Shown one piece after another: positions 17,575 to 58,230 of a stretch of DNA of 64,000 nt. Each line of letters starts with the position of its first letter. Position 1 is the first letter of the stretch. Made by a program: the position numbers and the translations under genes. The notes below the pieces were generated by a model. That model was not told the origin of the DNA. It searched no databases and saw nothing but the letters and a program-made list of their open reading frames with translations. The stretch comes from Planctomycetota bacterium (lineage in GTDB: Bacteria; Planctomycetota; Planctomycetia; Gemmatales; Gemmataceae): NCBI GenBank assembly GCA_016872605.1, contig VGZI01000005.1, forward strand, positions 1 to 64,000. The letters run 5' to 3'.

Positions 17575-17623
17575 CCATGCGATAAGATAAGGAATGAGTT
17601 GGTCGTACCTTGGAGCACTTCCG

Positions 17624-19075
17624 ATGAGAACCCCTCTTGTTGCATTCAGCTTCCTAGTGATCGGCTTCGTCGCCGGCGGCGCCCTGGTGTTGCAAGGGCA
17701 GCCGAATCCGCCGGGAGCGTTGCCGCGCGAATTGACATCCTACCGCGACGTGGTCAAGCGCGTGCTGCCCGCCGTCGTCAGCATCGAGACGTACGCCAAA
17801 CCGAAAGGGGCGGCGAATCCGCAGTTCTTCGACGACCCGAATATTCCAGAGCCCTTTCGCCGACCGCCCGGCAAAACCGACCCGAATCGCCTCGGCTTCG
17901 GCTCCGGGTTCTTCGCCGATCCCGCAGGCGTCGTTGTGACGAATTATCACGTGATTGAGGGGGCCGAGGTCGCAGTCATCCATCTGCACGATGGCCGCAA
18001 GGTTAGCTCGAAAGCAATTCGTGTCGATCGGCGGACGGACATCGCCGTCATCCTGCTCGACGCCAAGGACGCGCGGTTTCCATCGCTTGCATTCGGCGAT
18101 TCGGATGCGATGGAGATCGGCGATCGCGTGCTGGCGGTGGGGGCGCCGTTCGGTCTGGCGGGGAGCGTCACGCACGGCATCATCAGCGCCAAGGGGCGCA
18201 ACGGGCTGAACATGAGCATGTACGAGGATTTCTTGCAGACCGACGCGGCTATCAACCCAGGCAACTCCGGCGGTCCGCTCGTCAGCCTGGAGGGCAAGGT
18301 GATCGGGATCAACGCCGCCATCAAGAGCAAATCTGGCGGTTTCCAGGGCGTCGGCCTCGCGGTCGCCAGCAATCTCGCCAAGTCGGTTGTCCCCGCCTTG
18401 CGCTCGAGCGGTGTCGTCAAGCGCGGCTACCTCGGCGCTCACATTCGCGAACTCGACGCCGAAGTCGCCGATCGGCTCGGCGCGCCCAAGGACGGCGGCG
18501 TGGTCGTGGCGGAGGTCTTCGACAAGACGCCCGCATCCAAGGCCGGGCTGCAAGCGGGCGACATCATCACTTCAATCTCCGGCAAATCGATCAAGGACGG
18601 CAACGTACTGCAACGCGTCATCGCCTCGGCAACGATCGATCAGGCGATCGACATGGACGTGCTGCGCGCCGGCAAAACGCAGCGTCTGACGGTCATCGTC
18701 GAAGAACAACCCGCCGACTATGGCGTCACCCCGGGACCGACGCCGATGCCGAACGTCCGCCCCTTGCCTCCGGGCGTCGCGATTGAGACCCTTGGCGTGG
18801 ACATCGCGGTGTTGACTGAAGAGTTGGCGGCGGACCTCGGTTTTGGCAAGGGCGTTCAGGGCGTCGTGATCACACGCGTTCACGACGCCAGCCCGGCATC
18901 GGTCGCGGCGCTTCGCGCCGGCACGCTCTTGAGCAAGGTCGACGGCAACACCGTTGCCACTCCCGCCGCCGCCCGCCTCGCCTTGCAGGCCACCAACTTC
19001 GCCAAGGGCGTCGTGTTGCAGATCGCTACCCCGCAAGGGGGCGTGAGTTACGTCCTCGTCAAGAGTATTCGGTAG
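17624..19075 (+). CDS. HtrA/DegP-type serine protease with two PDZ domains
   Basis: The 483-residue periplasmic protease starts with a hydrophobic segment (VAFSFLVIGFVAGGALVL) acting as signal or anchor. The trypsin-like triad is His109 (VVTNYHVIEG), Asp139 (RRTDIAVI) and Ser215 (NPGNSGGPLV). PDZ1 begins at GYLGAHIRELDAEVADRLG and PDZ2 near VDIAVLTEELAADLGFGKG. The ATG at 17624 is preceded by GGAG; the ATG at 17594 has its purine run too close. The role is probably envelope protein quality control. A palindromic element begins six bases after the stop. Confidence 0.92.
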   Translation: MRTPLVAFSFLVIGFVAGGALVLQGQPNPPGALPRELTSYRDVVKRVLPAVVSIETYAKPKGAANPQFFDDPNIPEPFRRPPGKTDPNRLGFGSGFFADPAGVVVTNYHVIEGAEVAVIHLHDGRKVSSKAIRVDRRTDIAVILLDAKDARFPSLAFGDSDAMEIGDRVLAVGAPFGLAGSVTHGIISAKGRNGLNMSMYEDFLQTDAAINPGNSGGPLVSLEGKVIGINAAIKSKSGGFQGVGLAVASNLAKSVVPALRSSGVVKRGYLGAHIRELDAEVADRLGAPKDGGVVVAEVFDKTPASKAGLQAGDIITSISGKSIKDGNVLQRVIASATIDQAIDMDVLRAGKTQRLTVIVEEQPADYGVTPGPTPMPNVRPLPPGVAIETLGVDIAVLTEELAADLGFGKGVQGVVITRVHDASPASVAALRAGTLLSKVDGNTVATPAAARLALQATNFAKGVVLQIATPQGGVSYVLVKSIR

Positions 19076-19080
19076 CCATC

Positions 19081-19132
19081 GTAGACCTCACGCTCCGCGT
19101 GAGGAATCCGTCACGCGGAGCGTGACGCCTAC
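19081..19132. repeat. Double-hairpin palindrome, intergenic copy (same family as in priA)
   Basis: Outer GTAG/CTAC arms enclose two inner hairpins, CTCACGCTCCGCGTGAG and GTCACGCGGAGCGTGAC. The same layout, with outer GTAGAC/GTCTAC, lies in frame within priA at 56542-56599. Here it directly follows the htrA stop and may serve as a terminator. Confidence 0.8.
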
Positions 19133-20241: not shown

Positions 20242-20290
20242 AGATCAGAAGTCAGAGGTCGAATGACTTCTGACCTCTGACTTCTGGTCT
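20242..20290. repeat. Hairpin between ABC ATPase and membrane fusion genes
   Basis: AGATCAGAAGTCAGAGGTC (20242-20260) pairs with GACCTCTGACTTCTGGTCT (20272-20290). Its right edge reaches the ATPase stop codon. No T-run follows, so it may be an intra-operon processing or attenuation structure or simply another repeat. Confidence 0.7.
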
Positions 20291-25832: not shown

Positions 25833-25914
25833 GACGCCCGGAATCTCCAGGAATCGCGGTGCTCAACTTGAGACTCGATGGGAATGACCGAGACGGTGCG
25901 CGACCGAAAGAAAG

Positions 25915-25995
25915 ATCGCTTTCCCACGCCGGCATGATCCGGATCAGGTCCCAGGGTTTGCTCTCAGTTCGCGGTAAGCGGACACCCCTAGCGAT
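25915..25995 (-). promoter_or_regulatory. TPP riboswitch (THI element)
   Basis: On the minus strand the conserved core is complete: GGGGTG, CTGAGA, ACCCTGGGACCTGATCCGG, ATCATGCCGGCGTGGGAA. Closing P1 arms ATCGCT (25995-25990) and AGCGAT (25920-25915) pair perfectly. About 80 bases separate it from the first gene, enough for an expression platform. Binding of thiamine pyrophosphate should lower expression of the downstream unit including thiC. Confidence 0.93.
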
Positions 25996-26083
25996 TACGA
26001 TTAGTTTATGCGAGCACGCAGCGCAAGCAAGTGCGGACAGCGGCCGCTTGCGTTGGGTCACACCATCTGGTACAGTCGTTGTC

Positions 26084-35706: not shown

Positions 35707-37491
35707 ATGCCGCAGATCATTCGAATCGCAACGATCATTCTACTGACGCTGACTGCTGGCTGTCGGCGCGACGCCGGCAAGTCACAGAACGACTCCAAGC
35801 CGGCCGACACCATCACCTCGAAAACGGGTGGAGAACTCGTGCTCGTCCCCGGCGGGTCCTTCACCATGGGCGATGCCGCCGGACGTGAGGACGAAACGCC
35901 GCACCCCGTGACGGTGTCGGCGTTTTACATGGATAAGCATGCCGTCACGCAAGAGCTTTACACGAAGGTCATGGGAACCAATCCGTCGAAGCATGTCAAT
36001 GTCAAGTGCCCCGTCGAACGCGTGCAATGGATCGACGCGGTCCGCTTCTGCAACAAATGCTCCGAACTCGACGGGCTGACGCCGTGTTACAACACCGACA
36101 CGTGGGACTGCAATTTCGCCGCCGACGGATATCGCCTGCCGACGGAAGCCGAGTGGGAATTCGCGTGCCGAGCTAGAGGAACCGGACGCTTTTGCTTCGG
36201 CGACGACGAAAAGGAGTTGCCCAAGTACGCCTGGCTTTATCCGGACTCGAAGGGCAAAACGCATCCGGTCGGCGAAAAGCTGGCTAACAGGTTCGGCCTG
36301 TACGACATGCATGGCAACGTGTGGCAATGGTGCCATGACCGCTACAGCGATTCGTACTACAAGCAAAGCCCCAAGGACGACCCGCGCGGCCCGACGACCG
36401 GCGACAAGCGAGTTTTGCGCGGCGGCGCCTGGGACACCAAGGCGGAGAAATGCCGATCCGCCTATCGTCACAAAGATTTTGCCGTGCTCGCCGACCTCTG
36501 CTTCGGCACCGACCCCTACGGCTTTCGGAGAGTGCGCGCCATGGACGCAACACCTCGCGGCGCCATGGCGGCGCTTCGTGGTGCGACGCTCCGCGTCGCA
36601 TTTCACGACGCGAAGCGTCGGGCCACGTTGTCGCTAAATCAATTATCGTTTGTCAGCACGGGCGCCGAAGACGAGAAGAAAACGCTGCCCAAAGGTAAAC
36701 CCGACGCCGCCAAACTCAAAGGAACCATCATCTTCGTCAGCGATCGCTCCGGTTCGCTCAAGATCTGGAGCATGGATGCGAGCGGCAAAAACGCCAAGCA
36801 ACTCACCAAAAGCGAAGGCCCCGATGCAGACCCGCGTTTCTCGCCCGACGGCAAACTCATTCTTTACACCACCGTCGTCGGCGGATTCCCCGAAGTCTGG
36901 GTCATGAATCGCGACGGCTCGCAACCAAAAAAAATCACCACCGGACGCGAAGCGAGCTGGGCCCCCAACGGCAAATCGATCGTCTTCATCAACGACAACC
37001 AAACCTTCGTCCGCGACCTCGACACCGGCAAGGAACGCCTCGTCACCCCCAAGGACTGGGAACGCTGCGGCGTCCCCGCCTTCAGCCCCGACGGCAAGAC
37101 CATCGCTGTCGCCAGCCGGCATCTCCCCAAGATCGGCATCTTTCTCGTCGATCTCACCGGCAAGCCACTCGGCCAACTCAAAACCGAGGAAGCCTGCTGC
37201 ACCCCCGCCTGGTCCAAAGACGGCAAGCGAATCCTCTGTCAGTCCGACAAAGGCCATATCCACGAAGTCCGCGTCGACGGCAAATCGGACGAGCAAATCA
37301 CCACCCGCCCCGACGTCCAGCACGACGCTCGCTATTCCCCCGACGGCACGATGTTCTTGTTTTGCCGGGCGCCAACGCCGAAAGGTCCCTGGCAGATTTG
37401 CGTCCAGCGCATCGACGGCGATGAGGACGATTTTGTGGTGCTAACAAAGGAAGGCTCGAACCAGTCGCCCGATTGGCACGCGCATGAGTGA
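35707..37491 (+). CDS. Lipoprotein with formylglycine-generating-enzyme-like domain and TolB-type propeller
   Basis: The 594-residue protein has a lipoprotein signal (IILLTLTAGC, Cys19). A SUMF1/FGE-sulfatase domain spans residues 40-280 (VPGGSFTMGDAAGRED; RLPTEAEWEFACRARG; GLYDMHGNVWQWCHDRY; RVLRGGAWD). A PD40/TolB-like propeller runs from about 335 to the end (FVSDRSGSLKIWSMDASGKNAKQLT; FSPDGKLILYTT). The join contains a palindromic insertion (residues 291-307). GAGGAA precedes the ATG. The domain may bind or modify sugars or proteins; the fusion's job is unknown. Confidence 0.85.
   Translation: MPQIIRIATIILLTLTAGCRRDAGKSQNDSKPADTITSKTGGELVLVPGGSFTMGDAAGREDETPHPVTVSAFYMDKHAVTQELYTKVMGTNPSKHVNVKCPVERVQWIDAVRFCNKCSELDGLTPCYNTDTWDCNFAADGYRLPTEAEWEFACRARGTGRFCFGDDEKELPKYAWLYPDSKGKTHPVGEKLANRFGLYDMHGNVWQWCHDRYSDSYYKQSPKDDPRGPTTGDKRVLRGGAWDTKAEKCRSAYRHKDFAVLADLCFGTDPYGFRRVRAMDATPRGAMAALRGATLRVAFHDAKRRATLSLNQLSFVSTGAEDEKKTLPKGKPDAAKLKGTIIFVSDRSGSLKIWSMDASGKNAKQLTKSEGPDADPRFSPDGKLILYTTVVGGFPEVWVMNRDGSQPKKITTGREASWAPNGKSIVFINDNQTFVRDLDTGKERLVTPKDWERCGVPAFSPDGKTIAVASRHLPKIGIFLVDLTGKPLGQLKTEEACCTPAWSKDGKRILCQSDKGHIHEVRVDGKSDEQITTRPDVQHDARYSPDGTMFLFCRAPTPKGPWQICVQRIDGDEDDFVVLTKEGSNQSPDWHAHE
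36577..36627. repeat. In-frame palindrome inside the SUMF1-TolB gene
   Basis: Arms 36577-36598 and 36606-36627 match over 22 positions with three mismatches around a 7-base loop; each arm contains CGACGCT(C/T)CGCGTCG. It is read in frame as RGATLRVAFHDAKRRAT, exactly between the two domains. The core GACGCTCCGCGTC resembles the CACGCTCCGCGTG core of the priA and htrA elements. Confidence 0.75.
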
Positions 37492-55761: not shown

Positions 55762-55802
55762 ATCGCGCATGTTCCGCGCGGAACATGCGCGATCATTTTT
55801 TT
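55762..55802 (+). terminator. Perfect 32-base palindrome followed by a T-run
   Basis: The palindrome at 55762-55793 (left half ATCGCGCATGTTCCGC) is exact and is followed by CATTTTTTTG. It is well placed to end transcription of the transporter gene. Confidence 0.85.
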
Positions 55803-55847: not shown

Positions 55848-55897
55848 GTGGAGCACATTTTCAACGTGCCGCGAAGCACGTTGAAAACATGCTCCAC
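55848..55897 (+). promoter_or_regulatory. Hairpin directly upstream of the priA ribosome-binding site
   Basis: Arms 55848-55869 and 55876-55897 pair over 22 positions with two mismatches around a 6-base loop (CGCGAA). The priA Shine-Dalgarno GGAGG starts two bases later. A 5' leader hairpin stabilising or masking the site is possible. Confidence 0.6.
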
Positions 55898-55908: not shown

Positions 55909-58230
55909 ATGCAGCCCAGCCTTTTTGAGCCGGACGCCCTCGCGCAGACGATTTCCGCCGGGTTCGCGGAAGTCGTTTTCGATCGCCCGCTCGATCATGC
56001 CTACACTTACGCCGTACCGGCGGCGCTGCGCGATCGGCTACGCGTCGGCAAACGCGTGTTGGCCCCGTTCGGGCGAGGCGACAAGCAAATCGTCGGCTTC
56101 TGTGTCGGCGTGAGCGATGCGAAGCCGGAACGCAAAGTCAAGGCGATCCTCGATGTGCTCGACGACGACGCCCTATTGACCGAGCCGCTCTTGAAGCTGA
56201 CGCGCTGGATGGCGGACTATTATTTGTGCGGCTGGGGCCAGGTGCTCAACGCGGTAGTGCCGGCGGGGGTCAAGAAGCAGGCCGGCACGCGCATGACGCC
56301 GATCGTGGAGCTGGTTCCCGACGCGCTCCTGCCCGATCCGTTGCCGCACCTCTCGCCGAAACAGAAACGCGTCTACGAGTACTTGAAGGCCAACGCGGCG
56401 CCGATCGAGTTGCGTCGCATCATCGCCGAAACGGGTTGTGGCAACGCGCCGATCGAGGCGCTCGTGGAGAAGGGGTACGCGCGGCGGCGGTCGGGGCGCG
56501 TGGAAAGCGAGACGACGATCTCGCAACCCGTGGACGATCTTGATCGTAGACTTCACGCTCCGCGTGAAGCTCCTCTCGCGGAGCGAGAGGTCTACGATCT
56601 GACTGCAGATCAAGCCGCCGCTTGGACCGTCCTCGAACCGGCGCTGCAATCGGGCGGATTTCGCTCGTTCCTGTTGCACGGGATCACCGGCAGCGGCAAG
56701 ACAGAACTGTACTTGCGCGCGATCGAAGAGATCAGGCGCCAGGGCAAGACGGCCCTCGTTCTCGTTCCGGAGATCAGCCTGACGCCGCAGACCATCGACG
56801 CCTTTCGTGGAAGATGCGGCGACATCGCGGTGCTGCACAGTCACCTGCACACGGCCGAGCGCGGCAGTCATTGGCGTCGCATCGCCCGCGGCGAAGCGAC
56901 CGTCGTCGTTGGCGCCCGCAGCGCCGTCTTCGCGCCGACGCAAAACCTCGGCCTCATCGTCATCGATGAAGAACATGAGACCAGCTTCAAGCAAGAAGCA
57001 ACGCCGCGCTACCACGCCCGCGATGTCGCCGTCATGCGGGCGCGCCTCGAGAACATCCCCATCCTCCTCGGTTCTGCGACGCCGTCGCTGGAAAGCTGGC
57101 ACAACGCCCAGCGCGGGCAGTACACGCTCTTGTCGTTGCCTAAGCGCGTCGCCGATCGCCCGTTGCCTCAAGTTCGGCTCATCGATCTGCGTCACGATCG
57201 CCATCCCGATAAAAAGCCGCACGGCCTCTCGCCGAGCCTGCAGCGAGCGATGAAGCACGCGCTCGACACCGGCGGCCAGGTCATGCTCTTGCTCAACCGC
57301 CGTGGTTACTCGACGTACTTGCACTGCCCGGCGTGCGGCCACGTCGAGCATTGCAAGTTCTGCGACCTGTCGATGACGTATCACCGCGATCGCCACGTCA
57401 CCATGTGCCATTATTGCGGCTTCGAGAACAAGCCGCCCGATCGCTGCGCCGTGTGCGGCACGGGCGTCGTCGTGTATCAAGGCATGGGCACCGAGAAACT
57501 GCAAGCCGAGATCGAAGCGAAGTTCCCGAATCACTCGGTCGAACGCATGGACTCGGACACCATGAAGCGGCCCGGCAGCCACCAAAAGGTGCTGGCCGCA
57601 TTTCGGCGCGGCGAGATTCAGATCCTGCTCGGCACTCAGATGATCGCCAAGGGGCTCGACTTTCCGAACGTGACGTTGGTGGGCGTCGTCAACGCAGATG
57701 TTGGTCTGCACCACGCCGACTTCCGGGCCTCGGAACGCACGTTTCAACTCTTGGCTCAGGTTGCTGGCCGCACCGGGCGCGGCGAAGCGGGCGGGTACGT
57801 GTACATTCAGACGATGCAGCCGGAGCATCCGAGCATCGCCTTGGCGGTGAATCACGATTACCTGACGTTTGCGCATGAAGAGATGCAGATCAGGCGGGCG
57901 CACAATTATCCGCCGTTCCAGCGAATGGCGAGACTCATCGTGCGATCCAAGGACGAGAAGGCCGGCAACGAATACGCCGACCGCCTCGCCGCCGCGTTTC
58001 GCGTCGTGCTGGATCAACGCAAGCAAGCCGCCGAGCCGGGCGAGTTGCGCTTGCTCGGTCCGGCCGAGGCGGCGGTATTTCGCTTGAAGGGCTATTTTCG
58101 CTTTCACTTTCAGTTGCAGAGCGCGAGTTCAGCGGTACTGCATCAAGTGCTGCGCGCCGTGCTGCCGACGGTGCGCGTCCCGGTCGGCGTGGAGTTGACG
58201 ATCGACATCGATCCGCAGGACATGCTGTGA
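55909..58230 (+). CDS. priA: Primosomal replication-restart helicase PriA, with repeat insertion
   Basis: The 773-residue helicase reloads the replisome at stalled forks. Walker A is GITGSGKTE (near residue 257), the DEEH box is IDEEHETSFKQE (near 352), and the zinc cluster is CPACGHVEHCKFCDLS ... CHYCGFENKPPDRCAVCG (about 472-520). The ATG at 55909 has GGAGG. A 58-base palindromic element is in frame at residues 212-230, between the N-terminal DNA-binding part and the helicase core. The helicase motifs are intact. Confidence 0.96.
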   Translation: MQPSLFEPDALAQTISAGFAEVVFDRPLDHAYTYAVPAALRDRLRVGKRVLAPFGRGDKQIVGFCVGVSDAKPERKVKAILDVLDDDALLTEPLLKLTRWMADYYLCGWGQVLNAVVPAGVKKQAGTRMTPIVELVPDALLPDPLPHLSPKQKRVYEYLKANAAPIELRRIIAETGCGNAPIEALVEKGYARRRSGRVESETTISQPVDDLDRRLHAPREAPLAEREVYDLTADQAAAWTVLEPALQSGGFRSFLLHGITGSGKTELYLRAIEEIRRQGKTALVLVPEISLTPQTIDAFRGRCGDIAVLHSHLHTAERGSHWRRIARGEATVVVGARSAVFAPTQNLGLIVIDEEHETSFKQEATPRYHARDVAVMRARLENIPILLGSATPSLESWHNAQRGQYTLLSLPKRVADRPLPQVRLIDLRHDRHPDKKPHGLSPSLQRAMKHALDTGGQVMLLLNRRGYSTYLHCPACGHVEHCKFCDLSMTYHRDRHVTMCHYCGFENKPPDRCAVCGTGVVVYQGMGTEKLQAEIEAKFPNHSVERMDSDTMKRPGSHQKVLAAFRRGEIQILLGTQMIAKGLDFPNVTLVGVVNADVGLHHADFRASERTFQLLAQVAGRTGRGEAGGYVYIQTMQPEHPSIALAVNHDYLTFAHEEMQIRRAHNYPPFQRMARLIVRSKDEKAGNEYADRLAAAFRVVLDQRKQAAEPGELRLLGPAEAAVFRLKGYFRFHFQLQSASSAVLHQVLRAVLPTVRVPVGVELTIDIDPQDML
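56542..56599. repeat. In-frame double-hairpin palindrome inside priA
   Basis: Perfect outer arms GATCGTAGAC/GTCTACGATC enclose CTTCACGCTCCGCGTGAAG and CTCTCGCGGAGCGAGAG. The arrangement is the same as the intergenic copy after htrA (19081-19132). It adds about 19 codons without breaking the frame. Confidence 0.85.

Follow-up and report, generated by a model that had tools for sequence, protein, structure and literature searches.

In-frame palindromic repeats in a planctomycete priA gene occupy a linker that holds different palindromes in sister species

The window analysed here, a stretch of 64,000 nucleotides from a planctomycete genome, carries on its forward strand priA (55909-58230, +), which encodes a replication restart helicase of 773 amino acids. 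The assignment relies on both profile and fold matches: the open reading frame is recognized by TIGR00595 at 617 bits (cut-off 230) and by PF17764, PF00270, PF00271, PF18319, and PF18074, with a PriA_3primeBD domain at residues 21-118, a DEAD domain at residues 234-395, a Zn_ribbon and a PriA_C domain, and the fold matches the PriA structures 4nl4 and 6dgd of the PDB. A palindromic element (56542-56599, +) lies within this gene, and the reading frame remains open across it. Its DNA corresponds to residues 212-231 (DRRLHAPREAPLAEREVYDL), located between the winged-helix part of the protein and the DEAD helicase core; a reading made from the sequence alone had already described this in-frame translation, with all helicase motifs intact, and the domain assignment agrees. 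The AlphaFold model of PriA, which drew on 49 PriA proteins from planctomycetes and other phyla, has a mean pLDDT of 89, and its only internal segments below 50 are residues 203-214 and 217-220, so that the insert falls in a linker predicted to be disordered; the element is thus predicted to be translated as a disordered extension of the linker that joins the winged-helix and helicase parts. Two more palindromes lie 5' of priA, one just before the start codon (55848-55897) and one at 55762-55793, the latter being followed by a T run and resembling a terminator. Other palindromes are present upstream of priA in five congeners.

The priA element, whose full sequence is GATCGTAGACTTCACGCTCCGCGTGAAGCTCCTCTCGCGGAGCGAGAGGTCTACGATC, consists of two GTAG-tagged palindromic repeats in inverted orientation (a REP doublet, REPIN-like). 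Perfect 10-base outer arms, GATCGTAGAC (56542-56551) and GTCTACGATC (56590-56599), enclose two inner hairpins recognized in the sequence, CTTCACGC-TCC-GCGTGAAG (56551-56569, +) and CCTCTCGC-GGA-GCGAGAGG (56572-56590, +); the extent of the element, its arms and its hairpins had all been given correctly by the sequence-only reading. Each unit takes the form of GTAG, NNN, and TCACGCTCCGCGTGA, and comprises the GTAG tag, an 8-bp stem and a TCC loop, with one unit per strand, so that the two face each other. The first unit (GTAGACTTCACGCTCCGCGTGA, 56546-56567, +) matches the family pattern exactly, while the second, inverted unit (GTAGACCTCTCGCTCCGCGAGA, 56574-56595, -) carries two mismatches that compensate each other in the stem (TCTCGC/GCGAGA). 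Over the whole element the arms pair at 21 of 23 positions, and the DNA folding energy of -25.4 kcal/mol (z = -7.9) was equalled by none of the shuffles. Excision of the segment from GTAG to CTAC together with one GATC (54 bp) would leave ISQPVDDLDLTADQ in priA. An Rfam search gave no match at the element.

The GTAG REP family to which the priA element belongs, referred to here as family A, is not confined to this gene. Its unit pattern, GTAGNNNTCACGCTCCGCGTGA, has four matches in the window, where shuffles give 0.04: twice in the priA element and twice in an intergenic doublet of 52 bp (19081-19132, +) that begins 6 bases past the stop codon of an HtrA-type protease (ORF 17594-19075), where the same arrangement had been noted earlier. 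The search of the window's own genome (G000, a planctomycete by its PriA relatives; 6.70 Mb, 372 contigs, 92.8% complete) for further copies, proposed in the sequence-only reading, returned 160 units at up to two mismatches, compared with one for a reversed-pattern control. With at most one mismatch allowed, each of the seven members of the genus has between 14 and 124 copies of family A. Beyond the genus, G020 alone holds it in abundance, mostly in the form of a GTAC variant, and it is rare in G009 and G027. All genomes are drafts, and most or all of them are metagenome-assembled. In a gene survey that covered 2.0 Mb (30% of G000, GC content 60%) with a simple gene caller, 60 units were found, 40 of which lie between genes, 14 within called genes and 6 partly within them. 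The in-gene doublets are read in the frame RxHAPRE, a phase bias that is partly built in, as called genes cannot hold a stop, and from which no proof is drawn. Family A thus displays three traits of GTAG REPs and REPINs: a tag with a stem-loop, a high and mostly extragenic copy number, and inverted doublets, of which there are 30, 17 being exactly 52 bp long.

The ends of these doublets were also inspected. The tetranucleotide GATC, which is self-complementary, stands at both ends of the priA copy and is common at family A ends; it occurs immediately outside the GTAG/CTAC ends in approximately one third of the doublets, far above expectation, and could belong to the element or mark a preferred target. 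A MITE with a target-site duplication was considered and rejected: no duplication was found at the non-palindromic flanks of family A doublets, and since these flanks do not repeat, GATC was not accepted as such a duplication.

Family A is read in frame in metH, eno, and queA of G000 as well as in priA (the first three genes being confirmed by NCBIfam), and in an oxidoreductase, a PaaK-like ligase and a glycosyltransferase gene named by sequence only. Palindromes of other families are present in leuS, polA, and alaS (also confirmed by NCBIfam) and in LarE-like and SelB-like genes. A strict scan of the surveyed part of the genome detected 19 intragenic palindromes, compared with one after synonymous shuffling, and the density of palindromes per base, whatever their family, is 23-fold lower in genes than in intergenic sequence, as expected from purifying selection. 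The sequence-only reading had considered it unusual for an essential-type replication gene to accept such an element; this view is only partly right, as eno, leuS, alaS, polA, metH, and queA carry them too, and in-frame GTAG REPs have been published, many of them in replication and repair genes (PMC3733652).

The main point, which is not visible from the window alone, is that congeners hold different palindromes at the same PriA site. Comparison with planctomycete relatives, in which a recurrence of the same residues encoded by unrelated codons would have marked the palindrome as coincidental, showed residues 212-231 to be absent from the PriA of all other planctomycetes examined. The linker is shorter in other genera, and is extended in six of six congeners by sequences that differ from that of G000. 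In G006 and G004 it contains GGGAGGGCGAGGCTCCCGCCGAGCC followed by its complement (family B), in G002 CCGTGTTAGCCGGACGCG...CGCGTCCGGCTAACACGG (family C), and in G001 two hairpins that start with GTTTAGCCGCTCGCC (family D type), while the sister species G003 and G005 have in common an insert of similar length without a clear palindrome, perhaps a decayed one. Congener inserts thus comprise palindromes of three other families and one non-palindromic insert. The estimate of 19 extra residues made from sequence is approximate, and no exact gain is given because every congener has another insert and none is empty. The insertion points vary by up to five codons between species. The family in priA is an abundant one in G000 (A), in G006 (B), and in G002 (C): family B has 111 matches in G006, 157 in G000, and 6 in G004, and family C has 208 in G002 and 5-57 elsewhere. 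G004 is a counter-case, family B being scarce there despite the B-like element in its priA. No insertion events were counted on the seven-genome species tree (FastTree), because G001 is weakly placed on it.

Orthologues of eno, polA, leuS, metH, and alaS were collected from the congeners, which together with priA gives six genes in seven species. The polA site is occupied by family E in G000, B in G006, an E-like element in G001 and a CCCTCTCCCC-type palindrome in G002. Its counterpart in G003 and G005 is merely a short stretch with no palindrome. The leuS site has four or five different palindromes among the species and none in G004. In metH, site 1 contains three different elements and is empty in two orthologues, site 2 contains family A in G000 only (a net 19 codons) and is without it in five congeners, and site 3 contains at least three kinds of element. 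All six species read have palindromic sequence in the alaS loop that precedes SVEFCGGTH, and at least three kinds are represented. In eno, G000, G004, and G001 share family A, which the remaining four species lack. Overall, the 39 open reading frames hold 28 palindromes, compared with 2.2 in synonymous shuffles. Of 19 congener palindromes, 17 lie at sites used in G000, where 1.3 would be expected and the maximum in 100,000 random placements was 8; the six genes were picked for having a G000 element, but the positions of the congener elements were not so picked. In 14 of these 17 the family, assigned by hand, differs from that of G000.

These observations are likely to be explained by the insertion of a GTAG-type REP doublet into the priA linker, with such doublets surviving in genes only at tolerant loops. 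Roughly a dozen families would strike the genome often, in-gene insertions would persist only where a loop can take up about 20 to 30 additional residues and the frame stays open, and each lineage would tend to show, at such loops, a family that is abundant in it. If survival is restricted in this manner, the same few loops should be filled repeatedly. The predicted disorder of the PriA linker, the existence of empty orthologues, the differing insertion points and the depletion of palindromes in genes all back this account. However, loops of approximately 15-30 bp are filled in 17 of 41 congener cases (41% by a strict count, a rate raised by ascertainment, as the sites were chosen for their G000 element) compared with 19 of 52 (37%) gene flanks of 250 bp, which is more than tolerance alone readily gives.

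This rate bears on a second explanation, attraction or exchange at the target, to which we give a modest chance: new elements would prefer or replace existing palindromes, through hairpins formed on single-stranded template DNA, and a filled loop would become a cassette. Unrelated families at one site in priA, polA, leuS, metH, and alaS, with no double occupancy of a single site seen in these five genes, are consistent with such exchange, as is the higher occupancy per base of re-used loops relative to gene flanks; the eno insertion, which lacks the short stretch present in empty orthologues, also resembles a replacement. Nevertheless, insertion points in the priA linker lie several codons apart between species, and the existence of empty orthologues (five for metH site 2, four for eno, two for polA) indicates that prior occupancy is not needed for insertion; furthermore, no co-occurrence across species was found for intergenic elements at gene flanks (7/18 vs 12/34). 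That some loops are true exchange cassettes, at which many unrelated families preferentially insert and whose content they replace, is rather doubtful; were it so, linkers of replication, tRNA-charging and metabolic enzymes would turn over within a genus by transposition.

A third possibility, which appears improbable, is that the linkers are adaptive, the encoded peptides or the mRNA hairpins being kept for a benefit to PriA or for slowed translation between domains. The occupied PriA site does lie at a domain junction, as indicated by the profiles and the AlphaFold model, and the occupied sites of PolA, LeuRS, and MetH presumably do so as well, given their established domain layout. The encoded sequences are nonetheless unrelated between species, and element-free orthologues exist.

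Very little probability attaches to divergence, in which the different palindromes would all descend by drift from one insertion in the ancestor of the genus; such a history has been proposed for RPE-4, -6, and -7 of Rickettsia (PMC3767692). The occupation of the same sites by different RPE groups in Rickettsia orthologues offers a precedent, and the common non-palindromic priA insert of the sisters G003 and G005, of similar length, would fit such a history, but several elements match almost perfectly a family that has tens to hundreds of copies in their genome, which drift would not bring about, and several sites have element-free orthologues. For priA, divergence is largely refuted by the assignment of the elements to families A, B, and C. 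Finally, a chance palindrome produced by codon usage in a GC-rich gene (GC content 60%) has next to no probability and is refuted by pattern counts far above controls in the window (4 vs 0.04), in the genome (160 vs 1) and under synonymous shuffling (28 vs 2.2).

With regard to the agent of mobility, GTAG REPs and REPINs are thought to be mobilized by RAYTs, REP-associated tyrosine transposases (PMC3733652, PMC3116915, PMC6006769), and family A is probably moved by such an enzyme. A genome search identified eight Y1-transposase matches in G000, none of which was found to be flanked by family A. In G004, a family A doublet follows within a few bases of the end of a RAYT-type gene (NF047646, 60.7 bits, short of the cut-off of 80); the repeat is on the 3' side only, where the contig ends. 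In congeners, Y1-transposase or RAYT-like genes (L258, L273, L265, and L266) have palindrome pairs on either side that belong to families E (CAGAGCCTGAAGCG), G (AAGCCGCAAGCGGC), and I (GAGGTACTCCGAACC), a REPtron-like arrangement with non-GTAG repeats.

The elements described here resemble the GTAG REPs of PMC3733652 in their GTAG tag, short GC-rich stem-loop, inverted doublets and mostly intergenic location, and in the presence of some copies in frame in genes for DNA synthesis, repair, and tRNA-related functions. That work listed in-frame GTAG REPs in 2013, many in replication and repair genes, reported different REPs at about the same recB site in two Xanthomonas species, and noted REP families in Planctomycetes; no further planctomycete study of in-frame REPs was found among the open-access papers searched. 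PriA does not figure in its main text, and here, in contrast, unrelated families re-use sites in at least five genes within one genus. As in the REPINs of Pseudomonas fluorescens, two inverted REPs form the mobile unit, which is RAYT-associated there; REPINs were described from extragenic space (PMC3116915), whereas some of the present elements are translated.

The parallel with Rickettsia palindromic elements drawn in the sequence-only reading holds for in-frame insertion into conserved genes, found here in priA, eno, metH, queA, leuS, polA, and alaS, but not for anatomy, by which the priA element is a GTAG REP doublet and not a Rickettsia-type RPE. RPE-1 to RPE-7 likewise add residues in frame to the products of conserved genes, in solvent-exposed positions (PMC10969869; PMC3767692), their orthologues may hold different groups at the same sites, and the affected genes include dnaE, queA, and tRNA synthetase genes. 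RPEs as first reported are longer, at about 150 bp, and the main origin given for RPE-4, -6, and -7 was the divergence of a single ancestral insertion, unlike the distinct high-copy families found here. Site re-use is the same kind of event as in these known cases, but repeated occupation by distinct families is better supported here. In-frame palindromes have so far been known mainly from Rickettsia and from scattered REP cases, and the choice between hotspot and old divergence was open, the Rickettsia authors favouring divergence of one insertion while leaving hotspots open (PMC3767692); distinct high-copy families at the same loops, together with empty orthologues, make this choice decidable by sequence comparison. 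A few loops of housekeeping proteins thus act as repeated landing sites for selfish DNA and provide a natural insertion map of the regions of PriA, PolA, LeuRS, AlaRS, and MetH that tolerate 20-30 extra residues.

The window contains a dozen other strong palindromes of several families, at 20242, 21873, 22554, 29479, 29555, 31932, 35631, 37499, 41405, 42631, 51030, and 60668, nearly all intergenic or at gene ends, or approximately one per 4-5 kb. A weaker hairpin pair without a GTAG tag, ACGCTCCGCGT / ACGCTTCGCGT (36583-36622), is read in frame in ORF 35707-37491, apparently where a formylglycine-generating-type domain meets a TolB-like repeat domain, both identified by eye, and is perhaps a decayed in-frame element. 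The sole Rfam match in the window is a TPP riboswitch at 25904-25999 (-) (RF00059, 61.7 bits).
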